From NCBI RefSeq assembly GCF_040499845.1, contig NZ_CP159342.1, positions 5,518,001 through 5,582,000 on the forward strand: a stretch of 64,000 nt of DNA, read 5' to 3'. A program made the position numbers and the translations under genes. The notes below the pieces were generated by a model. It saw nothing but the letters and a program-made list of their open reading frames with translations, searched no databases and had not been told where the DNA came from. The stretch's first letter is position 1; each line of letters opens with the position of its first letter. Of the stretch, positions 4,875 to 13,881 are shown one piece after another. The DNA comes from Micromonospora sp. CCTCC AA 2012012. Lineage in GTDB: Bacteria > Actinomycetota > Actinomycetes > Mycobacteriales > Micromonosporaceae.

Positions 4875-7043
4875 ATGACGTCCCCCCACGATGACGACCG
4901 TTTCGACTGGCACGCCGCCGAGCGTGACCTGACCGACCCGGCCGGCCCGGACGCCGAGGTGCTCGACCTCGACGCCGCCCGCGCCGCCCGCACCCCCGAC
5001 GGCGGGCCGATGCTGGTCGACTCGCTGGCCGCGCAGCGCTCCCCGCGGTTCACCCTCGACGGTGTCCGCGCCGGCCAGCGCCGCCCGATCCTGCCCGCGT
5101 GGCTGCGGTCCGGTGCCGAGCTGCGCGACGTGATGCGGTGGGCGGTGGGGCATCTGCTGCACACCGCCGCCTACCACGGCACCCGCCTGCCGAAGTACGC
5201 CGGCAAACTCGCGTTCCGCGCCCCGGCCGGTGCGGGCCGGCTGGTGTCGGGGGCGGTTCGGTGGCTGTTCGACTGGGAAGGCGAGCCGCACCGGCAGGCC
5301 ACCTCCCAGAGCAGGGACGGTGAGCTGTACCTGAAGCTGTCGCGGCAGCGGGACCGGCGGGTGCGATGGCGCGGCATCGTCGCCACCTTCACCCTCGCCG
5401 TCACCCTCGCCGGTGGCGTCGCGGTCGCCCTGGCCCCGTTGTGGGCGCGGTGGGCGGTGCTGGCGCTGCTGGTGACGCTCTGCGGGCTGCTCGGTCAGCC
5501 GGCCGACAAGCCGCTGCTCGACACCGCCGTGGTCGTGCCCCGCGTGGCGCGGCTGACCTCGGACGTGGTGGTGCGCGCCCTGGCCGTGCTCGGCATCTCC
5601 GGCATCACCCAGGCCATCGCCAAGCAGGGTCACCGGGCGATCGGCTTCACCGCCCCGATCGTGCGCGACGGCCCCGGCTGGCGGGCGGACATCGACCTCC
5701 CGCCCGGTGTGACGGCCGGGGACGTGATTGAGCGGCGGGACCGGCTCGCCGCCGGCCTCACCCGCCCCCTCGGCTGCGTCTGGCCCGAAGGGCAGCCGGA
5801 GGTGCATCCCGGCCGACTGCTGCTGTGGGTGGGCGATCAGGACATGGCCGCGACGAAGCCGGCTGTATGGCCGCTGCTCAAGGCGTCCGGCGGGTTCGAC
5901 CTCGGCCGGCCGGTGCCGTTCGGCACCGACCCGCGCGGCCGGATCATCTCCTTCGAGCTGCCGTACACGAACCTGCTGATCGGGTCGATTCCCGGCTACG
6001 GCAAGACCGCCGCCACTCAGGTGCCGATGCTGGCCGCCGCCCTCGACCCGTACGCGGAGTTGTGGTACTTCGACTTCAAGGGCACCGGCGGCCTCGACCC
6101 CCTGGAGAAGGTGTCGGCCCGGTACGCCTCGGGGCAGGACGACGACACCGCCGAGGAAGGGCTGTTGGCGTTGCGGGAGCTGCGCAAGGAATGCCAGCGC
6201 CGCGCCGCCATCATCAAGGGCCTGCCGAAGACGGTGTGCCCGGACAACAAGGTCACGCCGGAACTGGCCCGCCGCAAGAAGTTGGGCCTGCACTGGCTGG
6301 TCGTGGCCCTCGATGAGGTGCAGGAGCTGTTCTCCCACCCGGAGTTCGGCAAGGAAGCCGGCGAGCTGGCCGAGAAAATCATCAAGCTCGGCCGCGCCCT
6401 GGGCGTCATCCTCGTGGTCGCCACGCAGCGGCCGGACGCCAAGAGCCTCCCCACCGGTGTCAGCGCGAACGCGGGCACGCGGTTCTGCCTGCGGGTCATG
6501 GGCCAGATCGAAAACGACATGATCCTCGGCACCTCGGCCTACAAAAACGGCATCCGCGCCACGATGTTCGCCAAGAAAGACAAGGGCGTCGGCTACCTGG
6601 TCGGCGCGGCCGACGACGCGCAGATCGTCCGCACCTTCTACGTCGACGGACCGACCGCCGAAAAGATCACCGACCGGGCGCGCGCCCTACGCGAGGCGGC
6701 CGGCACCCTGACCGGGCACGCCATCGGCCAGGCAGCGCCGACCCCGGCGGCCCGCCGGGACACGCTGCTGGACGACATCCTCACCGTGGTCCCCGCGACC
6801 GAGCCGAAGGTGTGGGCCGAGACGCTGACCGAGCGCCTGGCCGACCTCAACCCCGAGGCATACGGGGACCTGACCCGCGACCAGCTCACCGCCGCGCTCA
6901 AGCCCTACGGGATCACCACGGGGCAGGTCTGGGGCACCGACCCGGCCACCGGCAAGGGCGCCAACCGGCGCGGCATCGACCGCGCCGACATCACCGACGC
7001 GGTCGCGGAACGTAACAAGCGGCGCGGAGACAAAGCCGCCTAA
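4875..7043 (+). CDS. traB: TraB-type FtsK/SpoIIIE DNA translocase (conjugal transfer)
   Basis: This 722-residue protein is the mobilisation motor of the element. In actinomycetes a single hexameric TraB moves double-stranded DNA between hyphae. Two hydrophobic segments lie at about residues 165-205 (WRGIVATFTLAVTL onward), placing it in the membrane. The FtsK/SpoIIIE ATPase follows, with Walker A GSIPGYGKTAA near residue 370 and Walker B VVALDEVQELF near 474, then the sensor-like VVATQRPDAKSLP. The C-terminal part after about residue 610 (the EAYGDLTRDQLTAALKPYGI region) may be a winged-helix clt-binding domain. ATG 4875 has GGAGGAACC upstream. It is followed by a CTAG-rich palindromic gap. 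Confidence 0.93.
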   Translation: MTSPHDDDRFDWHAAERDLTDPAGPDAEVLDLDAARAARTPDGGPMLVDSLAAQRSPRFTLDGVRAGQRRPILPAWLRSGAELRDVMRWAVGHLLHTAAYHGTRLPKYAGKLAFRAPAGAGRLVSGAVRWLFDWEGEPHRQATSQSRDGELYLKLSRQRDRRVRWRGIVATFTLAVTLAGGVAVALAPLWARWAVLALLVTLCGLLGQPADKPLLDTAVVVPRVARLTSDVVVRALAVLGISGITQAIAKQGHRAIGFTAPIVRDGPGWRADIDLPPGVTAGDVIERRDRLAAGLTRPLGCVWPEGQPEVHPGRLLLWVGDQDMAATKPAVWPLLKASGGFDLGRPVPFGTDPRGRIISFELPYTNLLIGSIPGYGKTAATQVPMLAAALDPYAELWYFDFKGTGGLDPLEKVSARYASGQDDDTAEEGLLALRELRKECQRRAAIIKGLPKTVCPDNKVTPELARRKKLGLHWLVVALDEVQELFSHPEFGKEAGELAEKIIKLGRALGVILVVATQRPDAKSLPTGVSANAGTRFCLRVMGQIENDMILGTSAYKNGIRATMFAKKDKGVGYLVGAADDAQIVRTFYVDGPTAEKITDRARALREAAGTLTGHAIGQAAPTPAARRDTLLDDILTVVPATEPKVWAETLTERLADLNPEAYGDLTRDQLTAALKPYGITTGQVWGTDPATGKGANRRGIDRADITDAVAERNKRRGDKAA

Positions 7044-7057
7044 CCCGGACAGCGTGT

Positions 7058-7111
7058 GGTCGCTAGGTCTAGCGGCACCCCCCGCTAGACCTAGCACCCC
7101 CGCTAGCGACC
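7058..7111. repeat. nested CTAG-containing inverted repeats downstream of traB
   Basis: GCTAGGTCTAGCGG at 7062-7075 is perfectly complementary to 7082-7095 with a 6-nt loop. GGTCGCTAG at 7058-7066 is also complementary to 7103-7111, so alternative structures are possible. CTAG is rare in high-GC genomes, yet it occurs five times here. It could be the traB terminator, an operator, or the clt transfer site that TraB proteins recognise near their gene; the choice is inference. Confidence 0.6.
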
Positions 7112-8045: not shown

Positions 8046-9038
8046 ATGTCTGACCTGCTCGCCGCTGCGCTCGCCCACGCAGGGCGCGGCTGGCACGTCT
8101 TCCCGCTGCGGCCGAACGACAAGCGGCCCGCGTTCCCCGACCACACCGCAGACGACTGCGCCGGCCGCGACCCACGCTGCCGTGCCGGGCACCTCGGGTG
8201 GGAGCAGCGCGCCACCACCGACCCCGACCGCATCCGCCGCGCCTGGTCGTCCCGCCCCTACGGCATCGGCATCGCGTGCGGCCCATCTGGGCTGGTGGTG
8301 GTCGACCTGGACGTGCCCAAGCGCCCCGACGACACCCCGCCGCCGGAGTGGGCGGGGGTATGCGACGGGTGGGACGTGTTCGCCACCCTCGCCGCCCGCC
8401 ACGGCACCCCGATCAACCCGCTCGACGGGTTCGGCCTGGACGCCCCACCGCGCACCGGCGTCGACGCCACCTACACCGTGGGCACCGGCAGCGGCGGCAC
8501 CCACCTCTACTACCGCCACCCCGTCGCCGGCCCGGCCCTGCGCAACACCACCGGCGACCGGGGCGGCCTCGGCTGGAAGGTCGACACCCGCGCCCACGGC
8601 GGCTACGTCGTCGCCGCCGGCAGCACCGTCGCCGGCTATCCCTACTCGGTGGCGCTGGACGTCGACCCTGCGCCGCTGCCCGGGTGGCTTGCCGGGCTGC
8701 TCACACCCGCGCCGCGACCGGCCCGGCCGGCAGCCGCGGTGACCCTGCCCGCCGAACGGCACGGTCGGTACGTCGCCGCCGCGATCCGCCGCCAGGTCGC
8801 CCGCCTGACCGCCGCCCCGGATGGGCAGCGCAACCACGCCCTGTTCACCTCAGCCGTGGCGCTCGGCCAACTCGCCGCCGGGGGCGCGCTCACTGACGAC
8901 GACGTCACCGCCGTCCTGGAACCGGCCGCCCTGTCCATCGGCCTGCCGGCCGGGGAAGTCGCGCGCACGATCGCGTCCGGTCTGCGCGTGGGCACCCGCA
9001 ACCCCCGCACCCTCGGCAACCTGGGTAGGGCCGCATGA
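8046..9038 (+). CDS. bifunctional DNA primase/polymerase (Prim-Pol) replication protein
   Basis: The 330-residue protein is an archaeo-eukaryotic primase-fold Prim-Pol. The N terminus has the family signature GRGWHVFPLRPNDKRPAF. The metal-binding DxD is in LVVVDLDVPK near residue 88, the SGGxHxY motif is in GSGGTHLYYRHP near 149, and GWKVDTRAHGGYVVAAGS follows. The last 90 residues are a helical linker. In AICEs of the RepPP type, a Prim-Pol protein initiates replication of the excised circle. The stop overlaps the start of the ATPase gene (ATGA), so the two proteins are made together and probably act as a split initiator. ATG 8046 has TAGGAG upstream. Confidence 0.9.
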   Translation: MSDLLAAALAHAGRGWHVFPLRPNDKRPAFPDHTADDCAGRDPRCRAGHLGWEQRATTDPDRIRRAWSSRPYGIGIACGPSGLVVVDLDVPKRPDDTPPPEWAGVCDGWDVFATLAARHGTPINPLDGFGLDAPPRTGVDATYTVGTGSGGTHLYYRHPVAGPALRNTTGDRGGLGWKVDTRAHGGYVVAAGSTVAGYPYSVALDVDPAPLPGWLAGLLTPAPRPARPAAAVTLPAERHGRYVAAAIRRQVARLTAAPDGQRNHALFTSAVALGQLAAGGALTDDDVTAVLEPAALSIGLPAGEVARTIASGLRVGTRNPRTLGNLGRAA

Positions 9039-10594
9039 CCAGCCGACTCCAGATCGGGTCCGGCCCGGAAACCATCCGCGTGCTCAAGGCCGCGCTCATC
9101 GACGGGCTGTTGCCCGACACCTACGTGTCGGCCGGGGCGCTGGTCCACATGGAAGCCGTCTCCGGTGGCCTGCCCACCGCCGCCGACGAGGACTCCCCGC
9201 TGCCGGTGTCCGCCAGCGTGGTCAACCCCGCCGGCCTCGCCGGCCTGCTCGCCGAGCACGCCTACGTCTACAAGCTGAAGACCCGCAAGAGCGACACCGG
9301 CGACCCGGAGATGTTCGAAGACGAGGTGACCCCGCCCCGGGACATCCTGTCCTCGGTGCTCGCCGGGAAGACGTGGCCGGGCGTGCCGCCGCTGCGCGGG
9401 ATCATCGGCGCTCCGGTGCTGCGCCGCGACGGCACCCTGTTGCAGCAACCCGGCTACGACCCCGCCACCGGCCTCTACCTCGCCTCCCGGGTGGCCTTGC
9501 CGCCCGTCCCCGACGAACCCACCCCCGAGCAGGTCGCCGAGGCGCGCACGTTTCTGCTCTCCCGGTTCCTGCGCGATTTCCCCTGGGCATCGGCTGCCGA
9601 TCGCGCCAACTACGTGGCGCTGCTCGCCACCCCGATCCTGCGGCACTTCACCCGCTCGCTGACCCCCTTTGCGCTGATCGACGCCACCATGCCGTCGAGC
9701 GGTAAGACGATCCTCACCGCCGGCCCCGGCATGCTCTACGGGCAGCGCGTCATGCCCTGGGCCTACGCGGACGAAGAGCTGCGCAAGTCCATCACCGCCG
9801 TCCTCGCCGAGCAGGTCGGCGTGGTCATCTGGGACAACCTCGCCGAGGGCACCGTCATCGACTCCGCCGTGCTCGCCCAACTCGTCACCACCGGCGTGTG
9901 GTCCGACCGCCAGTTGGGCGCGTCGCGGAACATCGCCACCGTCAACGACCGGCTGTGGATGGCCACCGGCAACAACCTCCAGGTCGGCGGAGACATGGCC
10001 TCCCGCACCGTCCGCGTGCACCTCGACCCGAACATGCCCCGCCCCGAACTGCGCGACCAATCCGGGTTCGGCATCCCCCACCTCGACCAATGGATCACCG
10101 ACCCCGCCAACCAACTCACCGTCCTGTGGCACCTCCTGGTCCTCGTCCTCGACTGGACCCGCCAAGGCGCACCCCGCCTCGGCGGGCTGTCCATGCGGCA
10201 ATTCACCCCCTGGGCGCAAGCCCTCGGCGGGTTCCTGGCGCATCACGGCATCGACGGGTTCCTCACCAACGCCGCCGACGTCCGCGAGATCGATGAAGAC
10301 GAAACGCGCTGGCGCGCGTTCCTCACCACCTGGCACGACCGCCACGGCGGCCGTGCGATGACCGCCGCCGAACTCCGGCAAGACGCCGAACCCCTGCACC
10401 TCGGCAGCGACGCCCACGACCCGTGGGACGGGCAGTTCATCACCACCGCCGCCGGACGACTGCCCAACCCCCTGCAACTCGGCCGGCTCCTCACCGGTCA
10501 AGCCGGGCGGTGGCGCGGTGAGCACGTCATCCGGGCCGGGAAACACGAGCGCGGCAACCGGGCCGTGTTCTGGGTCGAACACCACGAGGGCTGA
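9035..10594 (+). CDS. Rep-associated P-loop ATPase/helicase-like protein
   Basis: This 519-residue ATPase is coupled to the Prim-Pol gene. It has Walker A MPSSGKTIL near residue 220 and a Walker B-like VVIWDNLAEG near 263, followed by a WMATGNN motif. This layout fits helicase-like partners of Prim-Pol proteins. The C-terminal part has an acidic stretch EIDEDETRWRAF and a winged-helix-like end. It probably unwinds or remodels the element's origin. The iteron cluster that starts 6 bp after its stop is the likely binding region for this pair. Confidence 0.8.
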   Translation: MTSRLQIGSGPETIRVLKAALIDGLLPDTYVSAGALVHMEAVSGGLPTAADEDSPLPVSASVVNPAGLAGLLAEHAYVYKLKTRKSDTGDPEMFEDEVTPPRDILSSVLAGKTWPGVPPLRGIIGAPVLRRDGTLLQQPGYDPATGLYLASRVALPPVPDEPTPEQVAEARTFLLSRFLRDFPWASAADRANYVALLATPILRHFTRSLTPFALIDATMPSSGKTILTAGPGMLYGQRVMPWAYADEELRKSITAVLAEQVGVVIWDNLAEGTVIDSAVLAQLVTTGVWSDRQLGASRNIATVNDRLWMATGNNLQVGGDMASRTVRVHLDPNMPRPELRDQSGFGIPHLDQWITDPANQLTVLWHLLVLVLDWTRQGAPRLGGLSMRQFTPWAQALGGFLAHHGIDGFLTNAADVREIDEDETRWRAFLTTWHDRHGGRAMTAAELRQDAEPLHLGSDAHDPWDGQFITTAAGRLPNPLQLGRLLTGQAGRWRGEHVIRAGKHERGNRAVFWVEHHEG

Positions 10595-11075
10595 AACCCG
10601 CTGAACCATCTCGGCATCTCGGCATCTCGGCAGAACCAACCCTTGAGCTGGGAGAACACCCTGCCGAGATCAAGGCAGTCGACAACCGTCGATCTCGGCA
10701 TCTCGGCACCCTTCTGCCGAGATGACAGCCGGTTGCCGAGATGGCTCAGCGAACCCGGAACGATCTCGGCAGACGTTTGCCCAGCTCAACGGCACCTTTG
10801 CCGAGATGCCGAGATGCCGAGATGGTTCAGCCCCTCCCACAAACAAGCACCCACCACCGCAACCCAACCGCGCAAGCCGACCCGCTCAGAGCCACACAGC
10901 CGGTTCCGCCCATCGCCTAACACCGCCCCGCCCGAGATCTTGCCTCTACGGCCCTCTCAGCCGGCCACTCTAACGGCCTCCATCGATCCGCCCGCCACAC
11001 CTAGCAAGTCACCCTCGCCCGCCGAAAACGCCAGCCACCGGCGCTCTCAACCCACCGGAACCACGGAGAGAAGAC
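10595..11075. other. 481-bp noncoding region between rep and xis
   Basis: The left half is the iteron dyad annotated separately. The right half (10831-11075) has no gene that I accept and is C- and A-rich with no clear repeat. It ends in GGAGAGAAG just before the GTG of xis. Frames that stay open here are only translations of the repeats. Confidence 0.6.
10601..10830. repeat. iteron dyad: twelve copies of ATCTCGGC, candidate replication origin of the element
   Basis: ATCTCGGC occurs in the plus sense at 10608, 10616, 10624, 10692, 10700 and 10763, and in the minus sense at 10663, 10716, 10735, 10800, 10808 and 10816 (left ends). The outer three on each side are in exact 8-bp tandem. Together with flanking CTGAACC/GGTTCAG they make perfect 32-bp inverted repeats (10601-10632 and 10799-10830) centred at 10715. 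Inner pairs such as TTGAGCTGGG 10643-10652 and CCCAGCTCAA 10780-10789 are also mirrored. Position directly after the Rep genes supports an origin; the function is inferred. Confidence 0.85.
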
Positions 11076-11285
11076 GTGCCCACGCCAGAAAACCGCGTCG
11101 TCCTGACCATCGAAGAAGCCGCCCACCGACTCGGCATCGGCCGCACCACCATGTACGCCCTCATCAAGACCGGCCAAATCCGCACCGTCACCATCGGCCG
11201 CCTCCGCCGCGTCCCCACCTTCTGCCTCGACGAATACGTGCGGAACCTGCTCGCCGAACCAACCCACCTCGACCACGCCGCCTGA
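11076..11285 (+). CDS. xis: excisionase (Xis), MerR-like helix-turn-helix
   Basis: The 69-residue protein is a typical AICE recombination directionality factor. Its helix-turn-helix reads LTIEEAAHRLGIGRTTMYAL, followed by IKTGQIRTVTIGRLRRVP and a short C-terminal helix. GTG 11076 is preceded by GGAGAGAAG. It lies 16 bp upstream of the integrase gene on the same strand. The usual role is to bend the att sites so that integrase excises the element. Confidence 0.9.
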   Translation: MPTPENRVVLTIEEAAHRLGIGRTTMYALIKTGQIRTVTIGRLRRVPTFCLDEYVRNLLAEPTHLDHAA

Positions 11286-11301: not shown

Positions 11302-12513
11302 GTGGGACGCAAACCGAACGGCGCATCCAGCATCTACAAGGGCGGCGACGGCTACTGGCACGGCCGCGTCACCGTCGGCGTCAAGGACAACGGCAAGCCG
11401 GACCGCCGGCACGTCCAGGCGAAGACCGAGGCCGAGGTGATTCGCAAGGTTCGCGCCCTGGAGCGCGAGCGCGACAACGGCACCGCACGGAAGCCGGGGC
11501 AGCGCTGGACGGTCGAGAAGTGGCTCACGCACTGGGTCGAGAACATCGCCGGCCCGGTGGTCCGCACGAACACCCTCGACGGCTACCGGGTCGCCGTCCG
11601 CCGGCACCTGATCCCCGGCGTGGGTGCCCACCGTCTCGACCGCCTGGAGCCGGAGCACCTGGAGAAGCTGTACGTCCGAATGATGGCCAACGGCAGCGCG
11701 GCCGGCACTGCCCATCAGGCGCACCGAACCATCCGCACGGCGCTCGGCGAGGCGGTGCGTCGCGGGCACCTCGCCCGGAATCCCGCCGCGCTGGCCAGGC
11801 CGCCCCGCCTCCCGGATTCCGAGGTGCAGCCGTACACCGTCCCCGAGGTGCAGGCGATCCTACGCGCGGCGGCCTCTCGGAGGAACAGCGCCAGGTGGGC
11901 GGTAGCGCTGGCCCTCGGGCTGCGCCAAGGTGAAGCGCTCGGCCTGAAATGGCCTGATGTGGATTTGGAGAACGGGACGCTGACGGTGCGCCGCGCGCTT
12001 CTCCGGCCGAAATGGCGGCACGGCTGCGACGGGAAGTGCGAGCAGAAGTTGCCCGGCCAGTGCCCGGACCGGGTGAACGAGCGGCCGGTAGCGGCGGACA
12101 CCAAATCTCGCGCCGGCCGCCGTTCCATCGGTCTGCCGGATGCCCTGATCGAACTACTCCGGCAGCACCGCAAGGGGCAGGACGTCGAGCGTGAAACCGC
12201 CGCACAGCTCTGGCACGATGAAGGGTGGGTGTTCGCCTCGCCAACCGGCCAGGCGATCCATCAGGCGACGGACTACGACGAGTGGAAACGGCTGCTCAAA
12301 CTCGCCGGAGTGCGGGACGGCCGGCTCCACGACGCCCGGCACACCGCCGCCACCGTCCTCCTGGTTCTCGGCGTCTCCGGCCGCGCGGTGATGGGCATCA
12401 TGGGCTGGTCGAACTCGGCAATGGCCGTGCGATACCAGCACATGACGGATCAGGTGCGCCGCGACATCGCGCAGCAGCTCGGCGGGCTGCTCTGGGGAGA
12501 AAGCTCGGAATAG
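11302..12513 (+). CDS. int: tyrosine recombinase integrase of the AICE
   Basis: This 403-residue phage-type integrase catalyses site-specific integration and excision. It has an N-terminal AP2-like arm-binding region (GASSIYKGGDGYWHGRVTV), a SAM-like core-binding domain (residues about 75-165), and a catalytic domain with the first Arg in LGLRQGEALGLKW near 203, HDARHTAA near 342 and the nucleophile Tyr in YQHMT near 377. All key residues are present, so it looks functional. An insertion with four Cys (CDGKCEQ..PGQCPD) in the catalytic domain is common in actinomycete integrases. GTG 11302 has GAAAGGAG upstream. A strong hairpin follows. Confidence 0.95.
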   Translation: MGRKPNGASSIYKGGDGYWHGRVTVGVKDNGKPDRRHVQAKTEAEVIRKVRALERERDNGTARKPGQRWTVEKWLTHWVENIAGPVVRTNTLDGYRVAVRRHLIPGVGAHRLDRLEPEHLEKLYVRMMANGSAAGTAHQAHRTIRTALGEAVRRGHLARNPAALARPPRLPDSEVQPYTVPEVQAILRAAASRRNSARWAVALALGLRQGEALGLKWPDVDLENGTLTVRRALLRPKWRHGCDGKCEQKLPGQCPDRVNERPVAADTKSRAGRRSIGLPDALIELLRQHRKGQDVERETAAQLWHDEGWVFASPTGQAIHQATDYDEWKRLLKLAGVRDGRLHDARHTAATVLLVLGVSGRAVMGIMGWSNSAMAVRYQHMTDQVRRDIAQQLGGLLWGESSE

Positions 12514-13496: not shown

Positions 13497-13745
13497 CCCC
13501 TTAGGTAGCACGCTCCCGGCTTCGAGCGCCAGTCAGTAGGGGAGCCCGCCATATACCTCGCGGCGAGGGTGAATTGGCGCTCCTGGTAGCTGCCCTACGG
13601 GCGGCTGTCGCCCCCGGCGGCTCGGCGGACTGCTTCGGGCGTCCTACTGCCCTCCCTCAGGAGGGTGGGCGGACCTGCGGTCAGGCCGGATGGGCAGCCG
13701 CAAGTGAGACGACAACTGAGACGGCAGCGACCGTAGAGACGACTC

Positions 13746-13773
13746 AGGGCCGGTCCCCGTGGGGGCCGGCCCT
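13746..13773 (-). terminator. tRNA-Ser terminator hairpin
   Basis: A 13-bp stem with one G-T wobble (13746-13758 and 13761-13773) lies 24 bp downstream of the tRNA 3' end on the minus strand. It has no U tract. Confidence 0.55.
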
Positions 13774-13796
13774 GTCGTTCGTGCTGCTCACGCGAG

Positions 13797-13881
13797 CGGA
13801 GGATACGAGATTCGAACTCGTGAGGGTGTTAACCCAACACGCTTTCCAAGCGTGCGCCCTAGGCCTCTAGGCGAATCCTCC
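13797..13881 (-). tRNA. tRNA-Ser(GGA)
   Basis: The minus-strand sequence folds as an 85-nt class II tRNA. The acceptor stem pairs GGAGGAT with ATCCTCC, the discriminator base is G, the anticodon stem-loop is CACGC-TTGGAAA-GCGTG with anticodon GGA (Ser, UCC codons), there is a long variable arm, and the T arm contains GTTCGAATC. The CCA end is not encoded. Its 3' end faces the integrative element, which is the orientation expected when an integrase uses the tRNA 3' end as attB. Confidence 0.95.

Follow-up and report, generated by a model that had tools for sequence, protein, structure and literature searches.

A twelve-iteron array behind repA as the probable replication origin of a Micromonospora integrated element

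What does a dense array of short repeats do for the element that carries it, and which protein reads it? The question is raised by a 232-bp array in a 64,000-nt stretch of Micromonospora sp. CCTCC AA 2012012 (contig NZ_CP159342.1, positions 5,518,001 to 5,582,000 of the forward strand; hereafter the window). The array is carried by an integrated element of about 15.3 kb, behind a primase/polymerase (Prim-Pol) gene and the gene of a 519-aa ATPase, RepA, and ahead of the excisionase and integrase genes, xis and int. Our comparison of related loci suggests that it is very likely the replication origin of the element, because residue 508 of RepA matches base 6 of the repeated 8-mer in about 80 relatives with a single exception, and it points to RepA as the probable reader, through the tip of a predicted wing. 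An earlier sequence-only reading had proposed the array as a candidate origin, and that proposal gains support from the conservation of the array, from its covariation with RepA and from plasmid pWTY27, whose homologous RepA footprints a region of the same layout (PMC3583192).

The array and its conservation behind repA

In window coordinates, the array is composed as follows.

10600..10632, + strand: left arm of a 33-bp perfect inverted repeat, with tandem iterons at 10608, 10616 and 10624
10663..10670, - strand: iteron ATCTCGGC
10692..10707, + strand: tandem iteron pair
10716..10723, - strand: iteron
10735..10742, - strand: iteron
10763..10770, + strand: iteron
10799..10831, - strand: right arm of the 33-bp perfect inverted repeat, with tandem iterons at 10800, 10808 and 10816

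As the sequence-only reading had it, the exact 8-mer ATCTCGGC occurs twelve times at 10608-10823, six times per strand (starts at 10608, 10616, 10624, 10692, 10700 and 10763 on the + strand and at 10663, 10716, 10735, 10800, 10808 and 10816 on the - strand). The whole window holds 18 copies, against a mean of 2.83 and a maximum of 7 in 100 dinucleotide shuffles, and in 1,990 random 236-bp pieces from the rest of the window the top 8-mer count, over both strands, was at most five. The outer triplets are indeed perfect 8-bp tandems, and the inverted repeat whose arms contain them measures 33 bp rather than the 32 bp first given. The inner iterons had been described as mirrored around 10715. They mirror one another in order (- ++, then -- +), with offsets of 2, 3 and 8 bp; BLAST of 10600-10831 against its own reverse complement gives 72% identity, but an ungapped comparison matches only 110 of the 232 positions, so the mirror is true of the order and not of the exact spacing. 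The placement close behind the rep gene also holds, with other figures: counted from the RepA stop codon (10592-10594), the inverted repeat starts after 5 bp (6 bp had been given) and the first iteron after 13 bp, and 'just before xis' is a loose description of a gene that starts at 11076, 244 bp beyond the repeat. No DnaA-box-like word, in any of three patterns, was found in 10401-11100.

The sequence-only reading had named absence of the array from all relatives with the same rep genes as an outcome that would speak against it. Instead, of 62 loci collected from genome contigs by RepA similarity, 59 have an array of a single 8-mer right behind repA; the 500 bp downstream of the gene were searched, and L074, L093 and L094 gave none there. 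The word is mostly ATCTCCGC and in some loci ATCTCGGC, with divergent versions in L085 (ATCTCTGC), L053 (ATCTCCGA) and L077 (mainly AACTCCGC). The order of orientations, +++ - ++ -- + ---, recurs among relatives. Counting only iterons with at most one mismatch, which gave 881 of 972 slots with L065 left out, at least 10 slots are filled in 65 of 81 loci and at least 8 in 78, the third slot being the least constant (38/81 loci); looser words with another base 6 occur outside the slots in some loci. Across L033-L092, RepA is 73-92% identical and Prim-Pol 26-87% (not found in L077). Tra, the FtsK-like transfer protein, is 30-90% identical or was not found in the fetched flank; for Int and Xis, identity is often under 40% or no match was found.

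In one locus (L261:4727-16957, genome G1241) the Prim-Pol/RepA/array module stands three times in tandem with a spacing of 4,766 bp. From repA to repA, the first two periods match completely (4,766/4,766) and the third ends after its array, which makes either amplification or an assembly effect a candidate explanation.

Covariation of the RepA wing with the iterons

The replication genes upstream of the array, and the parts of RepA on which the argument turns, are these.

8046..9038, + strand: Prim-Pol primase/polymerase (PF09250, E 3e-40), directly before repA and sharing a 4-bp overlap with it
9035..10594, + strand: RepA, 519-aa ATPase, a predicted D5/SF3-like helicase with a C-terminal winged helix and the putative array reader
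10523..10582, + strand: predicted wing hairpin, repA codons 497-516 (strands 497-503 and 510-516)
10556..10558, + strand: repA codon 508, Asn in the window, the residue that matches iteron base 6 across relatives

RepA matched no Pfam family at E 0.01 and no NCBIfam family, nor any Protein Data Bank entry by sequence at E 1. Its predicted fold is that of a D5/SF3-like AAA+ helicase, with residue 508 placed in the wing tip of the predicted C-terminal winged helix.

Each locus has one letter at iteron base 6, be it C, G or T, in all its copies (880 of 881 slot iterons). Among the 70 loci typed first (55 C, 14 G and 1 T), residue 508 is Asp in 55/55 C loci, Asn in 13/14 G loci and Thr in the T locus; in an enlarged set of 81 loci it is Asp in 63/63 C and Asn in 17/18 G. 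All 15 loci fetched after the rule had been found were as predicted, or 14 of 14 without a duplicate. The 81-locus scan takes in 12 of these 15, and the 70- and 81-locus counts are not independent. Three of the later loci (L110, L142 and L192) have a broken-looking repA, and the wings of L142 and L192 were read separately, the first hit having ended before the wing. L141 and L186 are identical and both count among the 63 C loci; the partial hit L089 is excluded from the 70-locus count and included in the column scans of proteins and nucleotides; two C-terminal RepA fragments (G1004 and G1223) lie outside the sample. L053, L095 and L096 are untyped in the 81-locus scan, L053 having C at base 6 and Asp at 508. 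The RepA of L053 also has Leu for Arg at 506, unique among the rows with an RG wing, a possible second residue-base pair (n=1).

The correspondence recurs along the RepA phylogeny. On a tree of RepA minus the wing, base 6 needs at least 12 changes, and seven independent C/G pairs on well-supported branches are all concordant with residue 508 (p 0.016; 68 rows with both traits). Scanning protein columns for the share of the C/G label that each explains gives 1.00 for RepA 508, 0.56 for RepA 504 and 0.28 for the next RepA column. The best columns of the other proteins explain less: 0.27 raw and 0.13 above shuffles for Prim-Pol (75 loci) and, in smaller sets, 0.53 and 0.30 for Tra (36 loci), 0.59 and 0.35 for Int (31 loci) and 0.36 and 0.24 for Xis (17 loci). 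No column of Prim-Pol, TraB, Int or Xis thus follows the iteron type as RepA 508 does. The sequence-only reading had offered both Prim-Pol and the ATPase as binders; the covariation favours the ATPase, RepA, and leaves Prim-Pol without a matching column.

Plain linkage of codon 508 with the nearby array was tried as an explanation through the flanking sites. The first base of codon 508 is the sole nucleotide column to reach 1.00 among 363 from the 3' end of repA, with 0.55 at position 1 of codon 504; the others among the 22 columns printed are at most 0.23, codons 510 and 518, between 508 and the array, included. Of 247 columns downstream, the twelve iteron columns score 0.54-1.00 and spacer columns at most 0.29. 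Simple hitch-hiking should mark the sites between codon 508 and the array too, and these are decoupled, so that it does not fit.

A proposal for how the array is used runs as follows. RepA would bind each 8-bp iteron, and the six iterons per orientation would bring two RepA assemblies together, head to head, at the central dyad; ATP would drive melting once RepA has assembled, and the co-encoded Prim-Pol would then prime synthesis both ways. The wing code would leave C, G and T replicon types blind to one another's origins, so that wing and origin could be exchanged only as a matched pair. A wider picture is possible, if doubtful as a whole: Asp, Asn or Thr at 508 would form a C/G/T origin code under which a large family of actinobacterial replicons falls into compatibility types blind to one another; the wing codon and the twelve-iteron origin would be swapped only together, as one matched cassette; and satellites lacking an initiator, such as a 7.2-kb tRNA-Arg element (L199, below), would carry one complete origin per common type, for whichever helper arrives.

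Evidence against the proposal and other roles for the array

Several observations weigh against an origin read by RepA residue 508. A G locus, L045, is the sole exception to the rule, with a deletion at 508. The code fails outside the group of RG[D/N/T] wings, where the distant L118 and L120 both have G at 508 (by eye) and differ at the corresponding base of their iterons. Only 34 of 81 loci have an iteron, with one mismatch at most, in every one of the twelve slots. The repA of L074, which has Asp at 508, retains the first iteron only and is then followed by xis (L074:6707-6830); the array looks to have been lost by deletion. A strong AT-rich unwinding region was not found, the lowest GC content of a 30-bp piece being 0.53, and the L199 element has arrays without RepA. 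Finally, the history of the arrays is not that of the RepA bodies. In a comparison that left out L065 and L077, the nearest neighbour of a G array by its spacers is another G array in 14 of 18 cases; judged by RepA body, the nearest neighbour is of C type in 14 of 18 and of G type in 4. This disagreement makes it appear that arrays have been passed, with the wing codon, between RepA bodies. Recombination seems to carry wing and array together, and fresh switches would be fewer than the 12 changes on the tree. We make no case for 12 separate rounds of point mutation; a new conversion of every site can account for just some of the switches. That the matched pairing survives this shuffling is itself an argument for selection on compatibility. 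The strain of L074 also has a complete C-type locus, L058.

The code was also tried on distant RepA groups (35-60% identity). Arrays of related words lie behind many of these, including AACCCCGC, AAACCCGG, AACTCCGG and CTACCCGC, and residue 508 alone does not predict the words there, so the extension was rejected. No clear array was found in L119, L121 (which contains a run of N) or L180.

The association was also tested reciprocally. Of 160 genomes of the same genus, 34 have a RepA match, 30 the tandem word ATCTCSGCATCTCSGC and 27 both; where the word is lacking, the seven RepA matches are either fragments or 34-52% identical copies. Three genomes have the word and no RepA: G175, with two tandem words only; G259, with three + iterons beside xis and int of about 70% identity; and G1016. 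In a second family the word occurs in 20 of 240 genomes. All nine with at least two hits have RepA, as does one of the eleven single-hit genomes (G1254) and not the other ten; some RepA genomes there are without the exact tandem word (for example G1299, G1263 and G1025). Phage sequences, where the tandem word occurs in 59 viral contig stretches, were dropped as decoys, at least five words in 260 bp being found only in L213.

In G1016 the word belongs to the L199 element, 7.2 kb flanked by a repeat (2406-2448) and its second copy (9543-9585, tRNA-Arg 3' end), with genes for an acetyltransferase, a GntR regulator, a sigma-70-like ORF, xis and int, and no homologue of the window's RepA, Prim-Pol or Tra by tblastn at E 1e-3. 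It carries two adjacent complete arrays, one of C type (12 iterons, four of them AACTCCGC) and one of G type (13 iterons), plus a partial third. The element might be a satellite of the two replicon types, or else a remnant.

Other roles for the array involve the remaining parts of the element.

4875..7043, + strand: FtsK/SpoIIIE-like transfer protein, Tra (PF01580 19.8 bits, cut-off 24; plasmid_TraB 34.6 bits, cut-off 800, so that Pfam and NCBIfam scores are both under the curated cut-offs)
7058..7111, no strand: CTAG-rich inverted repeats directly after the tra stop, a candidate clt (cis-acting locus of transfer) by position only, the clt of pWTY27 lying at the same place
11076..11285, + strand: excisionase, Xis (TIGR01764 48.9 bits, cut-off 28.8)
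11302..12513, + strand: tyrosine integrase (PF00589 73.8 bits)
13736..13850, no strand: attachment (att) repeat overlapping the 3' end of tRNA-Ser (13796-13881, - strand); its partner copy starts 1592 bp to the left of the window (L197 from 18408)

The att direct repeats consist of identical blocks of 41 bp and 67 bp, take in the tRNA-Ser 3' end, and give the element its size of about 15.3 kb. Also inside the element are a HAD-family hydrolase (163-858 in the window) and, beside it, a GntR regulator (855-1748), cargo or control genes.

The alternative that fares best, though quite unlikely, is that the array is an operator or a copy-number (incompatibility) control, at which bound RepA would mainly repress or handcuff, the true origin lying elsewhere, for example in the rep genes. 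Iterons often have a control role as well, and covariation reveals the reader only and not the outcome of the reading; yet the array is downstream of repA, 0.24 kb before xis, and without its equivalent 300-bp segment pWTY27 does not replicate, while supplying the segment again restores replication (PMC3583192). Somewhat less probable still is a clt, where the FtsK-like Tra would read the 8-bp words as TraB recognition sequences (TRS) and pump double-stranded DNA to a recipient. The element does have such a tra gene, and Streptomyces TraB reads repeated 8-bp motifs by a winged helix (Vogelmann et al., cited in PMC3583192). Against this, no Tra column tracks the iteron type, the best excess over shuffles being 0.30 (36 loci only) against 0.97 for RepA (81 loci); the array persists while Tra diverges or goes missing from the fetched flank; it lies behind repA, 3.5 kb from tra; and in pWTY27 the clt and the RepA iterons are separate loci, with the clt at the tra 3' end (PMC3583192), where the window has repeats of its own. 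A TRS site for Tra was therefore rejected, given the covariation, the distance and the arrangement in pWTY27. An arm-type site for Xis or Int in excision, to which the position ahead of xis and int might point, is almost certainly wrong: in many loci the array stays while Int and Xis drop to 22-37% identity or were not found close by, none of the Int or Xis columns tracks the type (31 and 17 loci, low power), and the att repeat is 2.9 kb away.

An origin read by RepA would thus have its probable reader named, by sequence alone, to one residue and one base in a little-studied class of actinobacterial elements. If this is right, one could tell from sequence which co-resident elements are compatible, nature offers protein-DNA pairs both matched and mismatched, and one may ask how as many as twelve scattered sites remain identical through a change of their letter. 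The L199 element hints that satellites might make use of the code.

Known systems

The window's element is a candidate actinomycete integrative and conjugative element (AICE) with a RepPP module: it has a tyrosine Int, Xis, Prim-Pol, an FtsK-like Tra (below curated cut-offs) and integration at a tRNA 3' end with direct repeats. Its layout resembles that of RepPP or SLP1-type AICEs, where a Prim-Pol gene precedes a rep gene of non-RepAM type, along with xis, int, an FtsK-like Tra and a tRNA site (PMC3218068); the parts of that source drawn on here describe no origin for RepPP elements, and the word iteron is absent from its text.

Classic Rep_3-type iteron plasmids have direct iterons of about 17-22 bp. 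The sequence-only reading drew a contrast with iterons of about 22 bp. RepA, having no Pfam family at E 0.01, gave no match as a Rep_3-type initiator; iterons of about 8 bp in two orientations behind a Prim-Pol/RepA pair are not new. A tblastn search of plasmids with RepA returned 22 records, including pCM32 (57.6% identity) and pWTY27 (34.9% over 95%, E 3e-66). Plasmid pCM32 of Saccharopolyspora endophytica (L096) has the same gene order, with ten copies of AAACCCG within 350 bp behind repA, and differs in its iteron and wing type; no paper on pCM32 together with its host name turned up in the open-licence literature searched.

In pWTY27, a Streptomyces plasmid, the replication locus consists of RepA (522 aa), RepB (a predicted primase/polymerase) and the 300 bp of non-coding sequence that follow repA. 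This stretch contains long inverted repeats, five repeats of 8 bp and five of 7 bp that are nearly complementary; it is footprinted by RepA and needed for replication (PMC3583192), and we confirmed ten copies of GTGGGAA there. As in our element, a primase/polymerase gene adjoins a homologous RepA of about 520 aa and repeats of about 8 bp in both orientations lie right behind repA, so that this kind of origin was already known. The pWTY27 origin differs in its iteron (GTGGGAAC), in spacing and in being a plasmid rather than an integrated element, and the parts of PMC3583192 drawn on do not mention a residue-base code. Nor did searches of the open-licence literature, within the terms used, find a paper on such a code in this system; the wing residue-base code, the conserved 12-slot dyad and the initiator-less dual-origin element L199 appear to be new, and neither the code, nor the matched exchange of wing and array, nor a dual-origin element turned up there.

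More distant parallels exist. ORF904 of pRN1 likewise combines Prim-Pol, an SF3 helicase and a winged helix, with an origin just downstream of the rep gene, but it is one fused protein and its origin is a 100-nt stem-loop without iterons (PMC4234260). In the RepA of phage-inducible chromosomal island-like elements (PLE) and the iterons cut by Odn of phage ICP1, initiator-iteron specificity is again under evolutionary pressure, which comes there from a phage nuclease, and a one-residue code is not mentioned in the parts of that source used (PMC8263062). Rep of the Staphylococcus aureus pathogenicity islands (SaPI) works similarly to pWTY27 RepA (PMC7581432), and it shares with our RepA the D5/SF3-like AAA+ fold, predicted here, and iterons directly downstream of its gene. 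SaPI Rep and the Cch2 helicase of the staphylococcal cassette chromosome mec (SCCmec) differ in giving no sequence-level hit and in their iterons, and Prim-Pol is a separate gene here (PMC7581432). We would say that RepA works like SaPI Rep without filing it as a member, as its Pfam signature was not found. The closest working model for the array would thus be a self-loading helicase of the D5/SF3-like kind, as in SaPI Rep, rather than the initiators of plasmids with 22-bp iterons.
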